47,369 nucleotides of DNA. It comes from a virus. This document shows positions 10,221 through 45,148 of this stretch, in pieces. The stretch lies in IMG/VR virus record IMGVR_UViG_3300031952_000030, positions 1 to 47,369 of that record. One strand, given 5' to 3'. Positions within the stretch are counted from its first letter, which is position 1, and every line of letters starts with the position of its first letter. The notes under the pieces were generated by a model. It was given only the letters and a program-made list of their open reading frames with translations, was not told the origin of the DNA and did not search any database. The position numbers and the translations under genes were made by a program.

Positions 10221-10228
10221 GTAATGAT

Positions 10229-10301
10229 TCCAGAGTAGCTCAATTGGTAGAGCACCCGGCTGTTAATCGGGTTGCTGCAGGTTCAAGTCCTGCCTCTGGA
10301 G
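10229..10301 (+). tRNA. tRNA-Asn (GUU)
   Basis: Acceptor TCCAGAG/CTCTGGA, anticodon arm CCCGG-CTGTTAA-TCGGG giving GUU, T loop TTCAAGT. GUU is one of the four anticodon types that queuosine modifies. Confidence 0.9.
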
Positions 10302-10303
10302 TT

Positions 10304-10374
10304 GTGGCCGTGGTGTAGTGGCAGCACACGAGGCTGTGGTCCTCGGAGGATAGGTTCGAGTCCTATCGGTCACC
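10304..10374 (+). tRNA. tRNA-His (GUG)
   Basis: Acceptor GTGGCCG/CGGTCAC, anticodon arm CGAGG-CTGTGGT-CCTCG giving GUG, T arm ATAGG-TTCGAGT-CCTAT. The ATG of the following HNH gene begins two bases after its end. GUG is a queuosine-type anticodon. Confidence 0.88.
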
Positions 10375-12486: not shown

Positions 12487-12495
12487 CAGTATAAT
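12487..12495 (+). promoter_or_regulatory. CAGTATAAT element
   Basis: CAGTATAAT lies 9 bases after tRNA-Gly and 15 bases before the next gene, without a -35 box. If it is a promoter, its leader would be very short. Confidence 0.4.
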
Positions 12496-12510: not shown

Positions 12511-12795
12511 ATGTCCGTATACTGTTCATATTCAAAGGAACATTTCGTGACCAAAGACCAACTACAGGCGAAGTATCCAAAGTTTCTTATCAAGAGTGAT
12601 CCTGCCCCAAGTTGTCCAGTCTGTCGAGGATCTGGAGAGTTCGTAAACGGAGTTAAACAGACGCACATCTGTATGTGTGCTTGTTTGTCCGGGGAAGAGA
12701 AGATCCGGGCCAAACTTGTTGAGATGTTCCAACAATTTATCCATTCAAAGCTCACTGAAATGCAAACCCAATCTAGAAAGGCCAGGAGTAGATGA
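12511..12795 (+). CDS. Small zinc-binding protein with DnaJ-type CxxCxGxG, 94 aa
   Basis: The frame begins inside tRNA-Gly, so the first reasonable start is the ATG at 12511, though its ribosome site is poor. The centre holds CPVCRGSGEF and then HICMCAC, the cysteine spacing of a DnaJ-like zinc module. The C-terminal 35 residues are a charged helix (KIRAKLVEMFQQFIHSKL). Its stop overlaps the next start as ATGA. Function unknown; it may be a partner of the salvage hydrolase that follows. Confidence 0.55.
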   Translation: MSVYCSYSKEHFVTKDQLQAKYPKFLIKSDPAPSCPVCRGSGEFVNGVKQTHICMCACLSGEEKIRAKLVEMFQQFIHSKLTEMQTQSRKARSR

Positions 12796-13697
12796 TTCCA
12801 CAAACAGAAGTTCAGCCTCTCAAGATCATGTGGGAAACAGCTGAGACCATTCTATCCAGTGCTCAGTATGTTCATCTTGACCTTCCTCAGACATTTGATG
12901 ACATTGTCAAAAACATCAAGAAATTCTACAGAACCTGGATACCTCTTGTGTGGCCGGTAGGTGTGAACTCGCATGAGAAGCTCATCATATATTTTCTGAT
13001 CCGAGACAGCGTGAATTTCTGCTACTGGTATGGAAAACCGTCCTGCCGTCCGAATGGTTCGCAATCAGGCAAGCTTGCCGCTGTTCTTTCGGAGTGTTTC
13101 CTACATACTACGCCAGGACGCCTCTTCTACGATAGGGTCATTACTAAGTTCGCGGACCGATTGTGTGAAGAGCGGTTTACCTTGATTGATGAACGGCTCG
13201 CTTGTCTCCAGGAGCTACACAACTGTACCCAGAGAGAGGATGTACTAAAAGCTGTGCTCATCTCACCATCGTCAGCCCTACAACAGATGATTCATCACTT
13301 TCCGCGGTACACCTCAGATGTATTCCTCAAACGGGCGTCCCTTTTCATTGGGGAGATCTATAAGACCTGTGGATTCTCTGGTCGTACAACCGATGTGGGC
13401 ACATGGGAGACTGAGATCTGGGACTTCCCGGTTCCTGCCGACTATCATCTGCCCAATGTTCTTAGAGGACTTGGTCTTATTATCTACAACGAAGAGCTGG
13501 CTCATGTTGTGGATACCGGTCAACTGATTCCGAAAGGGTCGGGGATGGAGGCAGAGATTCGGGCAACTACCGTGACCATGTGCTTGGTCTTATCACGGAT
13601 GTCTCAGTGTCCTCCTCCTATTATCGATGATTATCTCTTTGGACGTCGTCATGAGTTCAAAACACCATTTCATCTAACTATCACTACCGACTACTAG
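12792..13697 (+). CDS. Queuosine-salvage glycosidase homologue (Qng1/DUF2419-like)
   Basis: Several family signatures occur in order: RDSVNFCYW near residue 71, a long helical middle with FLKRASLFIGEIYKTC, FPVPADYHLPNVLRGLGLII near 214, GSGMEAEIRATTV near 249, and PFHLTITTDY at the end. They parallel NFCFW, KRAQI, FADYRVPQxL, GSxxExEIRAxTI and PxHRTRTxxY in queuosine 5'-phosphate N-glycosylases (C9orf64/Qng1). Those enzymes release queuine from queuosine nucleotide. At 301 residues it is close to family size. In a phage that also has FolE, QueC/D/E/F and DpdA, it could free 7-deazaguanine bases from nucleotides for reuse. The family call is fairly strong; the substrate is inference. Confidence 0.72.
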   Translation: MIPQTEVQPLKIMWETAETILSSAQYVHLDLPQTFDDIVKNIKKFYRTWIPLVWPVGVNSHEKLIIYFLIRDSVNFCYWYGKPSCRPNGSQSGKLAAVLSECFLHTTPGRLFYDRVITKFADRLCEERFTLIDERLACLQELHNCTQREDVLKAVLISPSSALQQMIHHFPRYTSDVFLKRASLFIGEIYKTCGFSGRTTDVGTWETEIWDFPVPADYHLPNVLRGLGLIIYNEELAHVVDTGQLIPKGSGMEAEIRATTVTMCLVLSRMSQCPPPIIDDYLFGRRHEFKTPFHLTITTDY

Positions 13698-13698
13698 A

Positions 13699-13741
13699 GT
13701 TGATCAGAGTATAATCAATTGATACTAAACCAAAGATCAAC
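13699..13741 (+). promoter_or_regulatory. AGTATAAT element flanked by GTTGATC/GATCAAC arms
   Basis: TATAAT (13710-13715) lies between inverted 7-bp arms GTTGATC (13699) and GATCAAC (13735). The arms resemble those of the main promoter class, but there is no -35 box at the right place. It precedes the gene at 13759. Confidence 0.5.
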
Positions 13742-19418: not shown

Positions 19419-20914
19419 GAGGTGAACCTGATTTCAATTGGAAGGGGCTCAAGTTTGAAGGTCTGAAGTGGGCTTTCGAGCACATGAATTTCAAACGTCC
19501 ACCTCGTTGGCATCAACTTGTTAGCCTCGCATTTGCTACAGACAAACAAAGAGTAGGCTTCTGGCATGATGTAGGTACCGGGAAAACTCTAGCGGCCTAC
19601 TGGACAGCCCAGATGTGGAGCTGTAAAAAGATCCTGGTTGTTTGTCCTGGTGCAGCTCTGGGCTCATGGATGGGGGACTCAAAATGGACAGACTATAAAG
19701 CCCATATCATTTCGGGTACGACCCCCGAACGCAAGCTCAACATTGGTACCGCGGATGTATCTATTGTGCAATATGAGTGGTTAAAAACTATCTATGCACG
19801 ACTTTCTCCTCGAATCCGAGATGGACAGGAGATCGGAAATTCAAAGGAGTGGGCTATCAATCTAGGAGCTTTTGGACAGAACTTTGATTGTGTGGTGTTC
19901 GATGAGATCCATCGTTGCAATAACGAACGTTCGCTTCAATCAAAGATCTGCTTGGAGTTAAGTAAGAGAACAAATCACGTTATTGGACTCAGTGGCACAC
20001 CTGTAGATAAGAACCTTCTCGAGTTGTTTCACATTCACAAGGTTCTTGATCTTGGTTCAACCTTTGGATGGAACTTCTGGAGGTTCCGATTCGATAACTT
20101 CCACCAAGACGATTTCGAGTGGGTACCTCGGAAAGGAATGGAGCAGGCCATACTGAAGAAGTGGGCAAGAGTGTCCCTTAGTTTCAAACGAGAGGAATGC
20201 TTTGATCTACCTGAGTGCCAAGAGGAGGTGGTCAAGGTTCCTCAATCAGATGAATTCGCCGTACTGGAACACCGAGTTATTAACAACTATGCTATCAAAG
20301 TAGGCGGAAGTAATCTTATCTTCAATCTTCCTTCTGTCCGAGCTAACAAACTTAAACAGCTTACTGATGGGTTTATCTACCTTGCCCAGGAGGAGGGTGG
20401 AAGAGAAGTATACAGGTTGAAGGAGAACCCTAAGCTCGAAGCCTTGATGGAGATACTTGATAGCGGAATCAAGACTCTTGTATTCCATGAATACGAAGCA
20501 GCAGGGGACATCATGGAAGATGCGCTGAAAGAGAAAGAAATCAAGTTCGTTCGTTTCAGAGGAGGCATTACACCAGAGGAGCGTCTTAGCTACGAGAACT
20601 TATTCCAGACAAATTCTTCAGTACAAGTAGCAATTGTTCAGATTAGTGCTGGTGGTGAGGGATGGAATGGATTCGCCGCCCGAATGGTCGTATTCTATGA
20701 TATCGTAGCATCCCCCAAAGTCCGTAAACAGTGCATAGGTCGTATGTTACGAAGTGGTCAAGTGAACAAGACCTTGGTGATCGAGCTTGTTATGGAGTAC
20801 AGTATCAACGAAACAACTAAGTTGAATCAATTCGAACGTAGATCCGCTGTTGATGACTACATGGATTTCGTTCGAAGTTACAAGAGAAGACATGAGGAGC
20901 GAACTGATGGATAA
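19415..20914 (+). CDS. SNF2-type superfamily 2 DNA helicase/translocase
   Basis: The GTG at 19415 overlaps the upstream stop as GTGA. Motifs are in order: Q-like PPRWHQLVSLAFA, Walker A DVGTGKT near residue 52, ILVVCPGAALGSW (motif Ia), VVFDEIHRCNN (DExH-like, with DEIH), LSGTPVDKN (motif III), VAIVQISAGGEGWN (motif V) and QCIGRMLRSGQ (motif VI). This is the layout of the SNF2 and phage UvsW-like proteins, which remodel or branch-migrate DNA. Length 499 residues. FolE begins within its last codons. Confidence 0.85.
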   Translation: MRGEPDFNWKGLKFEGLKWAFEHMNFKRPPRWHQLVSLAFATDKQRVGFWHDVGTGKTLAAYWTAQMWSCKKILVVCPGAALGSWMGDSKWTDYKAHIISGTTPERKLNIGTADVSIVQYEWLKTIYARLSPRIRDGQEIGNSKEWAINLGAFGQNFDCVVFDEIHRCNNERSLQSKICLELSKRTNHVIGLSGTPVDKNLLELFHIHKVLDLGSTFGWNFWRFRFDNFHQDDFEWVPRKGMEQAILKKWARVSLSFKREECFDLPECQEEVVKVPQSDEFAVLEHRVINNYAIKVGGSNLIFNLPSVRANKLKQLTDGFIYLAQEEGGREVYRLKENPKLEALMEILDSGIKTLVFHEYEAAGDIMEDALKEKEIKFVRFRGGITPEERLSYENLFQTNSSVQVAIVQISAGGEGWNGFAARMVVFYDIVASPKVRKQCIGRMLRSGQVNKTLVIELVMEYSINETTKLNQFERRSAVDDYMDFVRSYKRRHEERTDG

Positions 20915-21476
20915 GGAGAGAATGGAGCAAGGTGTGAAGATGTTCTTGGAAGGTCTTGGACTGGATGCTACTGATCAACATCTTAGACGGACACCTGAAC
21001 GTGTGGTGAAGGCCTGGATGGAAGAGTTCGGCAATGGATACTTACTGACTCCGGACAAGGTTCTGACTGTGGAGTTTAGTGAACCCGACTCCACAGATGG
21101 TTTGGTGATTGTGCGAAATATCCCGTTCTACTCGCACTGTGCCCATCATCTGGTCATGTTTGACGGAACAGCTGATGTGGGCTATCTTCCGAAGAAAGGT
21201 CGGATTACAGGGATCTCGAAGCTGGCCCGAATAGTGGATATGTATTCTCACCGGCTCCAAGTTCAGGAGCGCTTGACCTTCCAGGTGGCTAAGTGCTTGT
21301 ATGATGGTCTGGATGCACGAGGTGTTGGTGTGATCATGCGGGCTCAGCATGCATGTATGACCTGTAGAGGAGCAAAGAAACCAGGATCCGAAACAGTGAC
21401 CAGCACATTGCTGGGTGAGATTCGGGATGATCCTCAGCTTCGTAATGAATTCTTGACCCTTTGTACAACGGAGTAA
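20907..21476 (+). CDS. folE: GTP cyclohydrolase I (FolE)
   Basis: The ATG at 20907 has AGGAG with 7 bases of spacing and overlaps the helicase stop. The zinc site is visible: SHCAHH near residues 76-81 and HACMTCRG near 153. HLRRTPERVVKAWMEEF and the RITGISKLARIVDMYSHRLQ stretch, with QVQERLT after it, are family hallmarks. The enzyme converts GTP to 7,8-dihydroneopterin triphosphate, the first step of 7-deazaguanine synthesis as well as of folate. With QueD, QueE and QueC elsewhere in the window the deazaguanine role is the likely one. 189 residues. Confidence 0.93.
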   Translation: MDKERMEQGVKMFLEGLGLDATDQHLRRTPERVVKAWMEEFGNGYLLTPDKVLTVEFSEPDSTDGLVIVRNIPFYSHCAHHLVMFDGTADVGYLPKKGRITGISKLARIVDMYSHRLQVQERLTFQVAKCLYDGLDARGVGVIMRAQHACMTCRGAKKPGSETVTSTLLGEIRDDPQLRNEFLTLCTTE

Positions 21477-23774: not shown

Positions 23775-24521
23775 ATGTTGAAAGTTCAATCAATCTTCGC
23801 AAGCATCGATGGAGAAGTAAACGCGTATGACGGAGCTGGTCAAGTTTCAACCTTTATTCGACTCCGTAGTTGCAATCTTCGATGTACATACTGTGATACA
23901 AAGTATGCACAGGACCAGTGTGAAACTCTGGGACAGACCTGGAAGAAGATGGAGATTCATGAGATCATCGATCAGATGATGAATCAAAAAGTTACACTTA
24001 CTGGGGGTGAACCACTGTTCCAAGGTGGAGAAGTAGCTTCGCTTATTGCTCTTCTTATCAGTAAAGGCCATGATGTAACAGTCGAGACCAATGGGTCTAT
24101 CCCTTTGATACGGTACGGTCTGTGTTACTATCCTCGTGATAGGGAAGGGCATCGTGGTAGTGTCCGTTTTGTTATGGACTATAAACTTCCATCCTCAGAG
24201 ATGGAGGACAGGATGTGTCTTGATAACTTCCACCTCCTCAAACCTCAGGACGTAATCAAGTTCGTCGTTTCCGATACAGCTGATTGGTTTAGAGTTCGTG
24301 ATGTAGTACACACTTACTGTTTAACATGTCTTGCCAGGATAGTTGTAAGCCCTGCGGTGTCCATCGTGGATGGACATACTAATCTTACCTGGGCTGTCAC
24401 ACTAGCTAATCTACTTGTGAAGGAACCTATGTGGGCAGGACATTCAGGTCCTGAAGCACAATACTCGTTGCAACTTCACAAGATACTATGGCCAACATCA
24501 GGTGAAAAGGACGAAAGATGA
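23775..24521 (+). CDS. queE: 7-carboxy-7-deazaguanine synthase (QueE)
   Basis: A radical-SAM protein with the CxxxCxxC cluster motif CNLRCTYC at residues 33-40. SIDGEVNAYDGAGQVSTFIR precedes it as in QueE, and LTGGEPLFQ follows. The enzyme turns 6-carboxytetrahydropterin into 7-carboxy-7-deazaguanine. At 248 residues it is of usual size. AAGGAG lies just before the ATG. The next gene is coupled by ATGA. Confidence 0.93.
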   Translation: MLKVQSIFASIDGEVNAYDGAGQVSTFIRLRSCNLRCTYCDTKYAQDQCETLGQTWKKMEIHEIIDQMMNQKVTLTGGEPLFQGGEVASLIALLISKGHDVTVETNGSIPLIRYGLCYYPRDREGHRGSVRFVMDYKLPSSEMEDRMCLDNFHLLKPQDVIKFVVSDTADWFRVRDVVHTYCLTCLARIVVSPAVSIVDGHTNLTWAVTLANLLVKEPMWAGHSGPEAQYSLQLHKILWPTSGEKDER

Positions 24522-24820
24522 GGACCGATGGACTCTTCGATTACTCAAAATCAGTGTGTGTAGATTGTCAGGAGCCCAAGCAAATTGTTGATCATCTCCG
24601 AGCTCTTCTCGACCTGCATGACCTTTTAGAAAAAGGATACGATGCTGAGCTACAAGATTTTCTTGTCAAGCTCAGAGTGGTTGGATGGGGATCTGTCCAG
24701 ATAGCTGGTTTCATACTGCAATCAAGTTTTCATACTCGGTGGGAAGGTCTTATTGATCCCCCAATTTCTTCCCAAGGTAATTCTTTCGAGTTTGAAAACA
24801 ATAAGTATAGGACGCACTGA
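24518..24820 (+). CDS. Hypothetical protein, 100 aa
   Basis: Coupled to QueE by ATGA. It begins [20 protein letters not shown] and continues as a helical protein ([20 protein letters not shown], then [10 protein letters not shown]). One CxxC is present. It lies between QueE and QueF, so a link with deazaguanine synthesis is possible but not shown. Confidence 0.55.
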
Positions 24821-24828
24821 GGTGTACC

Positions 24829-25383
24829 ATGCAAGATGATGAATTGATTAGTGATGCTGAGTTACATGAACGCGAACGGCGATACTTGGAGAATCATCCA
24901 AATCCCCTTTCTGATGATGCCACAAAAGATCTTCAACAACTCGGGTCTGGAAACACGAAGTATCCTCAACGTCCCGAGGACGCTGTTCTTGAAACCTTCG
25001 AAAATCGCTGGGTGCATAACGACTATGTAGTTGAGTTAGAGTGTCCTGAGTTCACAAGTTTGTGTCCCAAGACAGGCCAGCCTGACTTTGCCACATTCAA
25101 GATTCTCTACATTCCGGACAAGAGGTTGATCGAGAGTAAGGCTCTGAAGTTGTATTTGTTCTCCTTCCGGAACCATGGGGAGTTTCACGAGAGTGTTACC
25201 AACCGAATCGCACATGATTTATACGAAGTGATGCATCCGAAAATTATCTTGGTTCGAGGAGATTTCTTCCCTCGGGGTGGTATCTCAATCAATCCGACCG
25301 TGATTCTCCCGAACGATGTTTCTCCTGTTCTTGAGAAACGACTCATGAGCGCTTGGAGAGAGGACTGTGCCGGACAACAGTAA
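24829..25383 (+). CDS. queF: preQ0 reductase (QueF), unimodular
   Basis: [12 protein letters not shown] near residues 76-87 contains the nucleophilic cysteine (79) and acid (86) of Que[21 protein letters not shown] further on is the NADPH/dimer signature. The enzyme reduces the nitrile of preQ0 to the aminomethyl group of preQ1. It is the unimodular form at 184 residues. AGGTGTACC precedes the ATG. Its presence implies that the base made by this phage is preQ1 rather than only preQ0. In other phages QueF-like paralogues have changed function, so the product needs testing. Confidence 0.88.
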
Positions 25384-26863: not shown

Positions 26864-27667
26864 ATGAGTAAAGTGGTTGCAATTGTGTCGGGTGGAATGG
26901 ACTCAGTGACATTGTTGAAGAAACTTCTGGTGGACGGGTATGAAATTCTGGTTCTAAACTTCAGTTACGGATCGAAGCACAATTTCATGGAGCGGAGAGC
27001 TTTGCTGGATGTGTGCGATCATCTGCATGTGAAAGCGTACTTGTATGATCTGCCTACGACAGCGGATCAGTACATTCCGAGTATTCATAATGCATTCCAG
27101 GCGGTGCCTTTACTGGAGTCGGGGCTTCTGAAGACGGGCGGAGAGATCCCCGAGGGTCACTACGCTGAGCCCACGATGAAAGAAACAGTAGTTCCATTTC
27201 GGAATGGGATTATGTTAGCTATCGCTGTTGGGTTTGCCGAAAGTCATGGAGCCACAGCAGTATACTATGGTAACCATGCAGGCGATCATGCTGTCTATCC
27301 GGATTGCCGCGGAGAGTTCGTACTAAGTATGAGTCAAGCAGCATTAAAAGGAACATATGAAGGAATTCAGATTTTCTCGCCTTTTGCCGGGATGACCAAA
27401 GCTGAGATCGTTAAACTAGGTCTTGAGATTGATGCCCCTCTGCATCTGACTTGGTCGTGTTACAAAGGAGGTAATCGACCATGTCTGGTCTGTTCAACTT
27501 GTGTCGAGAGGATCCAGGCGTTCTACGATACAGGTTGTATTGATCCTTCTCTGACTGGTGAGGAGTGGGCTCATGGTGTTGCGAATATGAAGAAGGTGAT
27601 TGCCCGGTTCAATGAAGAATACAAGGATGGGTTTGGACGGTCAGAAGTGTCTCTGGACAACACCTAA
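26864..27667 (+). CDS. queC: 7-cyano-7-deazaguanine synthase (QueC)
   Basis: The ATP pyrophosphatase loop SGGMDS lies at residues 9-14, and the C-terminal zinc site CYKGGNRPCLVCSTCVER near 205-222 has the four family cysteines. NFSYGSKHNFMERR follows the loop as in QueC. The enzyme converts 7-carboxy-7-deazaguanine to preQ0 using ATP and ammonia. GGAGAA precedes the ATG. 267 residues. Confidence 0.93.
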   Translation: MSKVVAIVSGGMDSVTLLKKLLVDGYEILVLNFSYGSKHNFMERRALLDVCDHLHVKAYLYDLPTTADQYIPSIHNAFQAVPLLESGLLKTGGEIPEGHYAEPTMKETVVPFRNGIMLAIAVGFAESHGATAVYYGNHAGDHAVYPDCRGEFVLSMSQAALKGTYEGIQIFSPFAGMTKAEIVKLGLEIDAPLHLTWSCYKGGNRPCLVCSTCVERIQAFYDTGCIDPSLTGEEWAHGVANMKKVIARFNEEYKDGFGRSEVSLDNT

Positions 27668-27833: not shown

Positions 27834-28943
27834 ATGAGTACTGAATTCATACATCGGGCGAACTTCTTGACCTCCGGACGGAAGGACATCAAGGTCATGA
27901 ACCTTGGAATCCTGAAAGAGGGACGGGCTACTACACTGGAGACCTTCTGGAAGAGCCGAGAGCTGACCAAACTCCTCGAAGCGAATCCAACAATCCAGAT
28001 CTTTCTGGACTCTGGTGCTCACTCATTGTTGAATGCCCAGGTAGGCCTCATCAACACCGGATCTACTGTGAAGACAGAGAAGACGGCTGATGAGGATGGG
28101 TGTGTAACCTTCACTGGTACTGAGTTCCAGGACCGTCTTACCCCTAACCAGAAGATCCACTACTCCAAGTGTACTAGTGGTGCTCCTCAGTTTCTAGCTG
28201 ACTTCTCGTTTAACGATAAGGCAGATGTCCGGCAGTATCTGGACAACTACGTTGAGTTCATCAAGAAGTATGCTGTTCAGTGCCCGCTGTATGTAAACCT
28301 AGACATCATCTACAATGCTGATGAGTCCTGGAAGAACCAGATGTACATGGAGTCCAAAGGTCTCCGTCCGATACCTGTGTACCACTTCGGTGAGGATATT
28401 AGGCACTGGAAGAGGATGGTGGATGAATACGACTACATTGGCATCGGTGGTGTGGCTGGTGGTGTTACCCTCAACCAGTTCGTAAACTTTGCTGATCCAG
28501 CCTTCGAGTACTTGTGGCAGAAGAAGCCCGATTGCAAAGTGCACGGATTTGCTGTTACGTCTCACCAGTTGATGACTCGGTATCCGTTCTGGTCAGTGGA
28601 CTCGACCACCTGGTTGAAACATGCAGCGTACGGAAATATCATGGCGCCGCATTGGTCCGAAGAAAAAGAGGACTTCAACTACTTCCAACCTCCGGTGATT
28701 TATTCAGTCTCGGATGTTTCACTGGTGAAGGCCACCAAGAATCCTCACTATACTCTTAGCTGTCCTCCTGCTGAAGTGGCAAGAGTGAATGAGTACTTCC
28801 GCCGTGCCAATGTTGATCCAGAGAAGTTGAAGATTGATATGCTCGAGCGATTCAGGGTCAACATTTACTACTATGAAGAACTGCTTAAGTGTCCTCAGTT
28901 GCATGAACGGAAGCCCTTCCACCGAACTAGATCTTTTTTCTAA
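27834..28943 (+). CDS. dpdA: 7-deazaguanine DNA transglycosylase (DpdA-like)
   Basis: A TGT-related barrel: IFLDSGAHS near residues 56-64 supplies the catalytic aspartate seen in tRNA-guanine transglycosylases. IPVYHFGEDIRHWKRMV and YIGIGGVAGGV form the base-binding strand-loop, and KVHGFAVTS followed by YPFWSVDSTTW supplies the second catalytic aspartate. DpdA swaps guanine in DNA for a 7-deazaguanine base. At 369 residues it fits phage DpdA. TTGATAAGGAATCAG precedes the ATG. Together with QueF it suggests preQ1 in the phage DNA. Confidence 0.85.
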   Translation: MSTEFIHRANFLTSGRKDIKVMNLGILKEGRATTLETFWKSRELTKLLEANPTIQIFLDSGAHSLLNAQVGLINTGSTVKTEKTADEDGCVTFTGTEFQDRLTPNQKIHYSKCTSGAPQFLADFSFNDKADVRQYLDNYVEFIKKYAVQCPLYVNLDIIYNADESWKNQMYMESKGLRPIPVYHFGEDIRHWKRMVDEYDYIGIGGVAGGVTLNQFVNFADPAFEYLWQKKPDCKVHGFAVTSHQLMTRYPFWSVDSTTWLKHAAYGNIMAPHWSEEKEDFNYFQPPVIYSVSDVSLVKATKNPHYTLSCPPAEVARVNEYFRRANVDPEKLKIDMLERFRVNIYYYEELLKCPQLHERKPFHRTRSFF

Positions 28944-30505: not shown

Positions 30506-33241
30506 ATGGGTGAGCAGAAAGCATTTTTTCCATCAGCATTTGAGGTTTTTGAGCAGAACAATCCTGAGCGCTTCGCTCCCAAGCGAGGTCCTCGTCCTGC
30601 TGGATCCTCAAACCCTCGGAGAAGTGGCAAGAAGGTTGATGCCACACCGAAAGTGTATGATTGTGCTGAATGCGGACTGTGCAACTCATGTCGAAGTCCC
30701 CGAATCAAACGATATGGTGAGGGTCAGAAGAAGATCTTGTTCATTGGCCTCTGTCCTGGAAAGGATGAAGATCAAATTGGATTGCCTTTCGTTGGACCAT
30801 CAGGTGAGCTACTAAGGCGTCATTGTTCTTACGTTGGTCTAGATCTGGATAAGGACTGTGTCCGAACCAACATTGCTAGGTGCTACTCTACTAAAGATCC
30901 AACAGCTGTTCAGATCTTGTGCTGTCGTCAGAATCTTCTGAAGGACATTGAAGAGGTGAAGCCCGAGCTGATCATCTGTTTAGGTGATCTGGCCATCAAT
31001 GCAGTTCTCGAGAAGCCGAAAGGTATCAAGTCCAAGACCTTTTCCAGGTTTTCAGCAGCGATGATGCATGGAATGGTCGTGTACAGCAGGAAGTTCAACT
31101 GCTGGGTTGCATCTTCTTATCATCCAGCATTCTTCCTTCGTCGTAAGAACAGGACCGATGTGCCGGACGATGAAAATCTCTTCGTATTCGACATAGCACG
31201 GGCCTTGAACTATCTGGACAAGAAACCGATTGAGCCGTTGACAGAAGATGGCAACGTGATGCTCTCGAATCCTGATGGGGCGATTCGAATCATCAACCAG
31301 ATGTGCGAATCAGTCGATCCAGTTGGTTACGACTACGAAACATTCCAGCTAACTCCTTTCCAACCAGAGGCTGAGCTTCTGTCCATCGCCTTCACTAACA
31401 AAGTGGAATCAGGTTACTTTATTCCTTTTGGTCTTATCAATCCAGCCACAGGTCAGAAGTACTTCAACTTAGTAGAGCAAGGTTTCATACTAGAGGCGTG
31501 GAAACGTTTTCTGGCCAGTAAGGCTCCCAAGGTCGTGCAGAACTTGAATATGGAGGAGCTCTGGAACCGAGAGTACCTCCATCAGTCCATGTCGAACTTT
31601 ATTCATGACACGATGCTGGCTCAGCACATCCTCCACTGCAATACCAACACAACTTCACTGGCGTTTCAGGTCTTCGAAATGTGTGGCCATGATTACAAGG
31701 AAATGGTCAACACAAAAGACCTTCGTGGGGAAGACCCACTAAAGATCTTCCATTACAATTGCTGGGATGCTCGCTACACGTTGATGTCGTATTACCAGCA
31801 GATGCCCCGACTTAAGAGAGAAGGACGCTTATCTGAATTCAATGATCTACTTCAGAAGGGTGAGATGGTATTGGTGGAGATGCGGAGAAGGGGTGTTCTT
31901 ATCGACATCAATGTTCTGAAGAGTCTTGAAGACGAATACGACCAAGAACGGGAGCAGCGATTTGTGGGGATGCAGAACTCCCCAGGTGTGGTACAGTACG
32001 TTAACGATAACAAAGATACTAAGGGCTTCAAAGGTTTCAATCCCAAATCAACTTCGCAGATGGGGCGAATCCTCTATGGAGTGTACCAAGTACCCCTCTA
32101 TAGAAAGACCAAGACACAGAAAGGCAAGTCCGATGTAGATGCCCTGGAAGAAATTCAGAAGAAGACTGATAACCAGAATGTCAAGACCTTGATCGATGAT
32201 TTGTTCCGATATCGGAAGTGCGGAAGTCTTCTTACAAGAGCTGCTAATTATCGAAGATTGATGGACGTAGCATGCCTGGTTCATCCTATTTTCAATCTGC
32301 ACATCGCAGATACATATCGATCATCGGCGGACAGTCCTAACATCCAGAACGTCTTCAAACACGACAAGGAACTGAAGAAGTTCCGTCGTATTATCATCCC
32401 AACACCTGGTAACATCCTCCTCGAAGCAGACTACAGTGGTCTGGAAGTTCGAGTGATTGCGATGGCGTCCAAGGATGAGGAACTGACCCGACAGATCATC
32501 CAAGGAGTTGATACTCACAAGAGGTGGGCGTCTGAGATTTACCGTAAGCCCCTTGGCCAGATCTCGAGTGATGAGAGATTTGAGTGTAAGAACAGTTTCA
32601 TCTTTGCATCTTTCTACGGAGCCACAGCGGATTCGATCGCCCGTAAATTTCCCTCTGCACCTGAAGGTCATATTGCTTTTGTCCAGGATAAGTTCTGGAA
32701 TGAGTTCTACAGTGTTAGGACTTGGCAGCGTCGAACGATTGAGCAGTATCGGGACTGTGGGTATGTAGAGGGCATGTCCGGTTTCCGTCGGTATGGTCCT
32801 CTTACCATTAACAAGCTCTACAACACTCCTATTCAAGGACCAGCGTTTCATCTGATGGTAGGCGCTTTGATCCAGATTGAGATCGCGTTCGCTGAGCGTG
32901 GACTCCGGTCACGACCCATCTTCGAAATCCACGATAGTGTTACTATCGACACAGTGCCAAGTGAGGCTGAAGAGGTTGTAAAGATTGTGACGGAGATTAT
33001 GATCGCCAAACGATTTGAATGGCAGGGCATTGTTCCTCTTGGAGTTGAGTTTGAGATCGGAATTACCAACTGGTATGATCTTACACACCTGGAGTTTGGA
33101 GACTGCGAGTTCTGTCATGTCCACGGACCGATGGGACACTCGAAGGACAAGAAAGATCTGCCTGATGGCCACAAGCAAATTACTCACTTGTTACAGTGTG
33201 GAACATGCCGGCAGGTCAAGCAGCGGGTTGAGGTGAAGTAG
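30506..33241 (+). CDS. DNA polymerase I-type polymerase with N-terminal uracil-DNA-glycosylase-like domain
   Basis: Residues about 50-225 resemble family 4/5 uracil-DNA glycosylase: cysteines at 53, 56, 59 and 62, GLCPGKDEDQIGLPFVGPSG at 81-100 and SYHPAFFLRR near 209. A DEDD exonuclease follows (YDYETF near 276, QNLNMEEL, YNCWDARYT). The family A polymerase core is clear: LLEADYSGLEVRVIA near 640 (motif A), CKNSFIFASFYGAT near 694 (motif B) and EIHDSVTID near 810 (motif C). The tail adds a CEFCHVHG...CGTC zinc module. It is the replicative polymerase. A UDG-PolA fusion is also known in SPO1. Whether the glycosylase domain is active is unclear. No strong ribosome site precedes the ATG. Confidence 0.9.
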   Translation: MGEQKAFFPSAFEVFEQNNPERFAPKRGPRPAGSSNPRRSGKKVDATPKVYDCAECGLCNSCRSPRIKRYGEGQKKILFIGLCPGKDEDQIGLPFVGPSGELLRRHCSYVGLDLDKDCVRTNIARCYSTKDPTAVQILCCRQNLLKDIEEVKPELIICLGDLAINAVLEKPKGIKSKTFSRFSAAMMHGMVVYSRKFNCWVASSYHPAFFLRRKNRTDVPDDENLFVFDIARALNYLDKKPIEPLTEDGNVMLSNPDGAIRIINQMCESVDPVGYDYETFQLTPFQPEAELLSIAFTNKVESGYFIPFGLINPATGQKYFNLVEQGFILEAWKRFLASKAPKVVQNLNMEELWNREYLHQSMSNFIHDTMLAQHILHCNTNTTSLAFQVFEMCGHDYKEMVNTKDLRGEDPLKIFHYNCWDARYTLMSYYQQMPRLKREGRLSEFNDLLQKGEMVLVEMRRRGVLIDINVLKSLEDEYDQEREQRFVGMQNSPGVVQYVNDNKDTKGFKGFNPKSTSQMGRILYGVYQVPLYRKTKTQKGKSDVDALEEIQKKTDNQNVKTLIDDLFRYRKCGSLLTRAANYRRLMDVACLVHPIFNLHIADTYRSSADSPNIQNVFKHDKELKKFRRIIIPTPGNILLEADYSGLEVRVIAMASKDEELTRQIIQGVDTHKRWASEIYRKPLGQISSDERFECKNSFIFASFYGATADSIARKFPSAPEGHIAFVQDKFWNEFYSVRTWQRRTIEQYRDCGYVEGMSGFRRYGPLTINKLYNTPIQGPAFHLMVGALIQIEIAFAERGLRSRPIFEIHDSVTIDTVPSEAEEVVKIVTEIMIAKRFEWQGIVPLGVEFEIGITNWYDLTHLEFGDCEFCHVHGPMGHSKDKKDLPDGHKQITHLLQCGTCRQVKQRVEVK

Positions 33242-44170: not shown

Positions 44171-44727
44171 CTCCCAAAGGCTGGACCATTCTCTTTGATC
44201 ATGATGAAGTGCATGAAGCGATCCGTCGAATTCGTTTGAGTATTATTAAGAAGGACGAGCCAAAGAAACTGGTTCTCATCGCCATACTTAAAGGTGGTCT
44301 CTGGACGGCGTACCAAATTCTTCGCCACATGAGCAATTACGTTGAGGACGTCCGGATTGGGCACATGGGGATCTCCTCCTATGGAAACGGACGACGACCT
44401 GACCAGATGAAGATCACCTCGACACTTGACCTTTCAATTGAGGATGTCAAAGATGAGAATGTTTGGGTTATCGATGATATTTGGGACACAGGTGCAACGA
44501 TGAAGAAAGCTCAGGAGATCATCGGACTGATGAATCCATCTCATCTTCGGACAGCAACTCTAGTTCACAAGGTCAATACGAATTCCTGTGGTGAGGAACT
44601 TTCCGGTCCTGATGTAACAGGGTTTAGGTATATAGGAAACGGATTTCTGGCCGGATGCGGAATGGGTTGTGGAGAACTGTATCGTCACTACGATGAGATC
44701 TACGAAGTGCCGGATGAACCAATCTAG
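44167..44727 (+). CDS. Purine-type phosphoribosyltransferase (HPRT-like)
   Basis: Coupled to the preceding gene by ATGA. LIAILKGGLWTAYQIL near residues 37-52 corresponds to the LKGG loop, and VWVIDDIWDTGATMKK near 99-114 is the PRPP-binding motif of type I phosphoribosyltransferases. The family joins a base to phosphoribosyl pyrophosphate. QueD begins 82 bases downstream, so the base could be a purine or a 7-deazapurine. A C-terminal cysteine-rich loop (GCGMGCGELY) is unlike most HPRTs. Length 186 residues. Confidence 0.75.
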   Translation: MTPKGWTILFDHDEVHEAIRRIRLSIIKKDEPKKLVLIAILKGGLWTAYQILRHMSNYVEDVRIGHMGISSYGNGRRPDQMKITSTLDLSIEDVKDENVWVIDDIWDTGATMKKAQEIIGLMNPSHLRTATLVHKVNTNSCGEELSGPDVTGFRYIGNGFLAGCGMGCGELYRHYDEIYEVPDEPI

Positions 44728-44809
44728 GATGAGAATGCTGCACTTGATTTGCAGAGAGCCCATCTCAAGGATCTTGAATCTCAACCACGACCAGAGTAGG
44801 AGAGAAGAG

Positions 44810-45148
44810 ATGTTTCGTATTCAGAAACGGATCGAGATCGCAGGAGCACACCACCTAAATTTGCCTTATGAAAGCAAGTGTCGAAACGTTCATGGCCATT
44901 CTTGGATTTTAACTATTTACTGTCAGGCCTCTGATGAAGCGGTGGAGGCTAACAATGGTATGGTGATTGATTTTACGAACATCAAAGAGGTTGTAATGAG
45001 GTTAGATCACAGCGATCTGAATCAAATTCTTGAAGAGAACCCGACAGCAGAGAACATTGCCCGATGGATCTGCTTGCACACCCCATACTGCTACCAAGTT
45101 GATGTTCAGGAATCAGAAGGAAACATAGCTACTTATGTAGTTGATTGA
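44810..45148 (+). CDS. queD: 6-carboxytetrahydropterin synthase (QueD)
   Basis: AGTAGGAGAGAAGAG precedes the ATG at 44810. AGAHHLNLPYESKCRNVHGH at residues 11-30 gives the catalytic cysteine (24) and the zinc histidines of the PTPS/QueD family. DFTNIKEVVMRLDHSDLNQI follows with the aspartate and histidine expected, and the ENPTAENIARWI helix with the glutamate. It converts dihydroneopterin triphosphate to 6-carboxytetrahydropterin. The same frame is open upstream to the previous gene, but 44810 matches the family N-terminus. Confidence 0.9.
   Translation: MFRIQKRIEIAGAHHLNLPYESKCRNVHGHSWILTIYCQASDEAVEANNGMVIDFTNIKEVVMRLDHSDLNQILEENPTAENIARWICLHTPYCYQVDVQESEGNIATYVVD

Follow-up and report, generated by a model that had tools for sequence, protein, structure and literature searches.

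The window, meaning the whole stretch of 47,369 nucleotides analyzed here, is recorded in IMG/VR as a linear virus sequence of 47.4 kb. No structural gene was recognized among the ORFs scanned, and therefore the window is probably a fragment of a phage genome. One of its plus-strand genes (called qng-like below; Table 1) codes for a protein with the motifs NFCYW (residues 75-79), KRASLF (180-185), ADYHLPNVL (216-224), GSGMEAEIRATTV and a terminal PFHLTITTDY. An earlier note on this DNA had named these motifs as ordered signatures of the Qng1 (DUF2419) family, and each of them was found, in that order, in an open 301-aa ORF. A chance ORF was rejected given several stops on the minus strand across 12792-13697, the Pfam score and a codon use which, like the GC content of the gene, resembles that of the rest of the phage. 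The sole Pfam match of the protein was PF10343 Q_salvage (E=1.4e-16, 61.3 bits with a cut-off of 25). Chains of the Sphaerobacter Qng1 matched it at 1.3e-9 in a phmmer search of PDB sequences, while PHROGs and NCBIfam gave no match. Qng1/QNG1 is a queuosine-5'-monophosphate N-glycosidase; in humans and bacteria it frees queuine from tRNA breakdown products.

Table 1. Positions of the qng-like gene, its neighbors and the 7-deazaguanine genes in the window, with the plasmid relatives in the last row.
Feature	Coordinates	Strand	Evidence or remark
tRNA-Asn(GTT) and tRNA-His(GTG)	10228..10374	+	among 11 tRNA genes in the window
Promoter-like motif AGTATAATAA	12488..12497	+	would drive ORF 12547 and the qng-like gene
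Small CxxC-rich ORF (ORF 12547)	12547..12795	+	82 aa from GTG 12547; directly upstream of the qng-like gene
Qng1-like (PF10343) protein	12792..13697	+	301 aa, ATG to TAG; K180, D217, D279 = Sphaerobacter (St) Qng1 K199, D231, D298
Promoter-like motif AGTATAATCA	13708..13717	+	after the qng-like gene; longer TGATCAGAGTATAAT around it common to kin L012
FolE (GTP cyclohydrolase I)	20850..21476	+	PF01227, 2e-61
QueE (radical SAM, 7-carboxy-7-deazaguanine synthase)	23775..24521	+	family match
QueF-II (preQ1 synthase)	24829..25383	+	TIGR03139, 159 bits, cut-off 86.9
QueC (preQ0 synthase)	26864..27667	+	family match
DpdA	27834..28943	+	phrog_887 (queuine tRNA-ribosyltransferase-like), 7.6e-43; motif DSGAHS at 59
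QueD (PTPS)	44669..45148	+	match over 44819-45136
qng-like genes on plasmids of Azospira and Variovorax	L024 19818-20732; L025 17821-18774		

The stop codon of the small upstream ORF overlaps the qng-like start (ATGA). This ORF had no Pfam match but has a homolog in the related contig L012 (11279-11533). The motif AGTATAATNA occurs in the window at positions 12488, 13708, 16062, 21479 and 35107, that is, in five copies, all on the plus strand, with 0.21 expected; it was also seen ahead of the matching genes in L012. We consider it a likely phage promoter element. Since two copies bracket ORF 12547 and the qng-like gene, these two genes probably form a single transcription unit. Elsewhere in the window, positions 30506-33241 code for a DNA polymerase A with an N-terminal uracil-DNA-glycosylase domain (PF03167 and PF00476), which resembles the SPO1-like polymerase.

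The AlphaFold2 model of the protein, made with 36 sequences, had a pLDDT of 91.8 and a pTM of 0.90 (a first model, A2, made with 11 sequences, had a pLDDT of only 72.8). Foldseek against the PDB gave 11 matches with E <= 0.001, all of them Qng1 chains, with a best value of 4.5e-11; against BFVD there was no match at this threshold. In VIA-align comparisons, the model was aligned to the Sphaerobacter Qng1 (7u07/7ulc) with Z of 26.8 and rmsd of 2.8 A over 275 residues, and to human Qng1 with Z of 25.4. The predicted fold is that of Qng1, and not the different fold that the earlier note had said would speak against its assignment; with the PF10343 score, the proposed Qng1/DUF2419-like identity was borne out.

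The next best structural matches after Qng1 were AGOG 8-oxoguanine DNA glycosylases, with Z up to 15.9. AGOG and OGG1 DNA glycosylases belong to the same superfamily as Qng1. An enzyme that acts, as they do, on a base within DNA, or in a step of DNA hypermodification, would agree with the AGOG matches (Z 13-16) and with a match to the DNA hypermodification enzyme gp46 of phage PaMx11, though its Z of 6.7 falls in the range that, according to the tool, may reflect no more than a common arrangement. We find this quite unlikely. The Z values for Qng1 were about 11 higher, and the alignment with Qng1 ran the full length to the C-terminal Tyr, whereas the archaeal AGOG enzymes, which have a DNA substrate and about 12% identity to the window protein, did not reach the C-terminal residues. 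Moreover, the Qng1 residues R257, H294 and Y301 are retained.

Sphaerobacter Qng1 was crystallized with the mutations D231N (PDB 7ulc) and K199C (PDB 7u5a). The equivalent residues here are D217 and K180, and both positions are invariant in 26/26 aligned viral proteins; the catalytic acid, whose absence would have counted against the family assignment in the earlier note, is thus present as D217. Also invariant in the 26 proteins are D298, R135, R257, H294, Y301, N75 and W79, with R181 and E253 nearly invariant. D298 and W302 were given as active-site residues of the Sphaerobacter enzyme (PMC11592518). The former is kept in the window protein as D279; the latter corresponds to F283 here and to W in 19 of the 26 viral proteins. 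Overall, the residues common to the viral and canonical proteins are N75, W79, R135, K180, R181, D217, Y218, P221, Y232, E253, R257, D279, H294 and Y301. The window protein and Qng1/QNG1 (DUF2419, C9orf64; Sphaerobacter 7u07, 7u91 and 7ulc, human 7ugk) therefore have in common the PF10343 family, the fold, the catalytic Lys and Asp, the D298 equivalent and the C-terminal HxTxTxxY. Judging from the modeled fold and the invariant catalytic residues, the protein is likely to act as a glycosidase on a nucleoside or nucleotide.

On the other hand, the viral proteins differ from canonical Qng1 at many of its near-invariant positions. The diagnostic changes are F76Y, F78Y, F215P and K219Q/H, together with the WYG (in NYCYWYG), RP (in RPNG) and FHLT motifs, the last one in place of YHRT. 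The residue that follows ADY is K in 28/28 cellular homologs and R in human, compared to H219 in the window protein, in which the canonical ADY[K/R] signature is absent. Among the aligned proteins, position 219 is Q in 22/26 viral ones, K in 23/24 canonical ones and R in human. Because F215P and K219Q/H flank the catalytic Asp, the alignment suggests a changed substrate.

Scans of IMG/VR with the window protein, or with alignments that included canonical Qng1s, detected no relative, and five tblastn queries against 50,697 records of cultured phages gave no match to the window protein. Plasmid proteins of the 'queuosine salvage family' (Azospira pAZI09 and Variovorax megaplasmids) have ADYQ and FHLT, compared to ADYH and FHLT in the window protein. 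A profile made of the window protein and the two plasmid copies (A3) matched 28 viral contigs in IMG/VR with E from 1e-21 to 4e-53, and a profile built from viral proteins (A6) raised the total to 41 IMG/VR contigs. These contigs span 5 to 548 kb and include very large phages. The lack of matches to the canonical and tblastn queries was therefore not absence; the idea that the gene is a unique oddity was rejected once the plasmid copies in the profile led to 41 further virus contigs, and the clade is present in at least 42 virus contigs, the window included.

A tree was made with 25 viral proteins and the window protein, 24 cellular canonical proteins, a human fragment, the plasmid copies and divergent outgroups. 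In this tree, the viral proteins clustered with support of 100 (88 if L095 is included) and joined the plasmid pair with support of 100. This viral and plasmid clade was a sister to canonical Qng1, human included (canonical support 99), and the window protein was placed outside the clade of cellular and human Qng1. An earlier tree without viral relatives, where the very long branch of the window protein stood beside canonical Qng1, was superseded by the larger one. Neither the tree nor codon use supported a recent transfer of a cellular Qng1. Thus, the membership in Qng1 claimed by the earlier note holds for family and fold, but the protein is outside the cellular ortholog clade (22-29% identity) and has changed residues around the catalytic Asp. 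With a separate mobile clade and such changes, Q-5'-phosphate cannot be assumed to be the substrate. This phage family is apparently undescribed; no report of a phage Qng1-like protein was found in the literature searched, with many journals outside that coverage.

The plasmid proteins, which are sister within the mobile clade, have 25-27% identity to the window protein and NYRFW or NFQFW for NFCYW. BLAST with the window genes found no FolE, QueC or DpdA relative within about 18-20 kb at the plasmid loci; for QueE, the sole match was to an RNR activase. The Azospira plasmid gene comes after genes for an SNF2 helicase and a DUF4031 protein. As a side observation, divergent PF10343 proteins with cysteine-rich C-termini (L075-L079) have VDYH or ADYY for ADYK. 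In one of these loci, from Chloroflexota (L076 5398-7224, minus strand), a PfkB/ribokinase-like N-terminus is apparently fused, as seen by eye, to the divergent PF10343 domain, and such a fusion would couple nucleoside phosphorylation with base release.

Some close relatives of the window phage do not have the gene. The contig L012 is collinear with the window, the aligned blocks being about 71-88% identical in DNA, and carries folE and the start of queE. The qng-like gene is cleanly missing there, exactly between the homologs of both neighbors (L012 11482-11512), and when the 30-nt spacer was aligned in search of a remnant of the gene, the result was not significant (p of 0.31 and 0.08). It is also missing in the more distant kin L017-L019. 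Given the absence in close kin and the phage-like codon use and GC, the gene is accessory yet settled in the phage.

All of FolE, QueD, QueE, QueC, QueF and DpdA are present in the window, and the phage does appear, as the earlier note had it, to build preQ1 and carry DpdA. An ORF at 24518-24820 was rejected as QueD for lack of a family match, with QueD located at 44669-45148. From QueF and DpdA in the window, we predict dPreQ1 in DNA, and the window phage probably makes such DNA. This modification was shown for Streptococcus phage Dp-1 and HVTV-1 (Hutinet 2019, PMC6884629), and the window has the six genes named above for comparison with the DpdA systems of these phages; the main text of that paper makes no mention of Qng1 or DUF2419.

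The tRNA-Asn and tRNA-His of the window have the GUN anticodons in which cellular Tgt places Q. With phage tRNA-Asn and tRNA-His of this type, the enzyme might perform the canonical salvage, with host Q-5'-MP turned into queuine that a TGT-type enzyme would place in phage or host tRNA, or even in DNA. In L100, a gene next to the qng-like one codes for a TGT-like protein that has the motif DSGGFQ, in line with this idea. We regard it as distinctly improbable, since the clade lies outside canonical Qng1 with K219 and F215 changed, no TGT beyond DpdA was noticed in the window (with PF01702 searched on at most part of it) and queuine is unnecessary for a preQ1 maker.

The earlier note had proposed a check of whether the gene occurs with dpdA in other phages. 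Among the 28 first-found records, QueC (PF06508) was clear in seven (G509, G514, G516, G518, G521, G523 and G534) and weak in G513 and G528. DpdA (phrog_887) was strong in G514, and a TGT/DpdA-like protein of 462-477 aa with DSGGFQ or DSGGYQ was found in G509, G523, G526 and G534. The genes for FolE, QueE or QueD bring in G507, G513, G515, G520 and G524. Of the 13 carriers of at least 60 kb that were mostly read whole, 10 had at least one such gene; in G512, G522 and G533 (64-81 kb, mostly read) no 7-deazaguanine gene was seen. The 13 loci found later, which were read within 10 kb only, added L208, L218, L219 and L220 to the carriers with pathway genes. Therefore, at least 16/41 contigs (near-identical G513 and G514 counted once and G528 left out) have 7-deazaguanine or TGT/DpdA-like genes, and the association is frequent but not universal.

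In several loci these genes are near neighbors. In L219, a QueC-like gene lies directly upstream, and the 10 kb around the qng-like gene also hold FolE-like and QueD-like ones, all three calls being made by BLAST and home-made profiles only. Since L219 is among the most divergent members (24% identity), the linkage there looks independent of the lineage of the window. A TGT/DpdA-like gene is located 48 bp downstream of the qng-like gene in L100, and L081 and L208 have the gene order qng-SNF2-FolE ... QueE. The TGT/DpdA-like family itself (L100 9878-11266; L111, L112, L113) comes from large phages; its 462-477 aa proteins have DSGGFQ/DSGGYQ compared to DSGA[YH]S of DpdA, with a weak phrog_887 match and none in Pfam.

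With the same QueC query and comparable BLAST, 4/28 carriers had a match versus 322/50,697 cultured phages (Fisher p 3e-5), a value that is only indicative, as the carriers are interrelated, many are large and some partly read, and the cultured set is not size-matched. Huge phages were earlier reported to carry QueC/D/F (PMC7162821). The reverse association fails; none of the 180 phages with a DpdA relative among the 50,697 cultured records had a qng-like match.

From this genomic association, a 7-deazaguanine substrate is fairly probable. For the function as a whole, we tentatively favor, at a little under an even chance, a phage N-glycosidase that would free a 7-deazaguanine base for recycling via DpdA or TGT. 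By analogy with Qng1, the enzyme would bind a nucleoside or nucleoside 5'-monophosphate with a 7-deazaguanine base, derived from the breakdown of host tRNA or the turnover of modified DNA, and hydrolyze the glycosidic bond to set the base free; the phage transglycosylase (DpdA or TGT-like) would then re-insert it. The PF10343 score, the Qng1-fold model, the invariant catalytic residues, the complete preQ1 pathway with DpdA in the window and the pathway or TGT-like neighbors in L219, L100, L081 and L208 argue for it. Still, queuine, the usual Qng1 product, is no intermediate on the preQ1 route, and a de novo preQ1 maker needs salvage less. The residues adjoining the catalytic Asp are unlike those of canonical Qng1, the three carriers G512, G522 and G533 had no 7-deazaguanine gene in the DNA read, and, conversely, kin with pathway genes have no qng-like protein (L012/L016 with folE and partial queE, G007 with QueE, QueC and DpdA).

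The same carriers without pathway genes, as well as the many altered near-invariant positions, would agree with a fold kept for the release of some other base. We take this to be very improbable in view of the invariant catalytic residues and the linkage with QueC, FolE, QueD and TGT-like genes that recurs across separate lineages.

One lineage of large phages has the gene for the large subunit of ribonucleotide reductase (RNR) immediately after the qng-like gene, either overlapping it or separated from it by no more than about 40 bp. This arrangement was seen in 7/28 first-found carriers and in L216, with RNR 1 kb away in one more (L083); the loci are L083, L089-L092, L094, L097, L098 and L216. 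The RNR frame of L091 holds an intein/HNH-like stretch. RNR calls in L088 and L100 were rejected, as the matching ORFs carry inteins, one being a portal protein. In other carriers, a calcineurin-like phosphoesterase lies just upstream (L093, L101, L105 and L106; L211 is similar by eye).

The RNR adjacency ties the qng-like enzyme to nucleotide metabolism. It suits equally well a clearance of the pool, with 7-deazaguanine (deoxy)nucleotides destroyed so that they would neither undergo phosphorylation nor be built in at random by the phage polymerase, and modification would stay under the control of DpdA. Such an activity would account for de novo preQ1 makers such as the window phage, and RNR is found directly or 1 kb downstream in 8/28 first-found carriers and in L216. 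Even so, we think it unlikely: the RNR loci are highly syntenic and, as one lineage, count roughly as one event, the window itself showed no RNR, and a free base would still be produced, which makes for overlap with recycling. Recycling was put ahead of pool clearance because transglycosylase and synthesis genes adjoin the qng-like gene in some carriers.

More broadly, phages may have their own Qng1-like clade in a recycling loop with DpdA/TGT-like transglycosylases, where nucleotides would be stripped and the base returned to DNA (or tRNA), and where a carrier has an incomplete pathway, a scavenged base such as queuine could itself become a DNA base. This picture is possible, though rather doubtful.

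The phage 7-deazaguanine steps known so far are, to the extent of the literature searched, synthesis (FolE, QueD, QueE, QueC, QueF) and insertion (DpdA), with no step for recovery or removal of the base; the phage Qng1-like clade, if the reading is true, would supply it. Although searches of PHROGs, BFVD and the cultured-phage records gave no match to it, the clade is represented in at least 42 virus contigs, and it makes a defined, testable set of proteins. Because the changed residues adjoin the catalytic Asp, the clade is also a natural comparison for the substrate choice of human QNG1.
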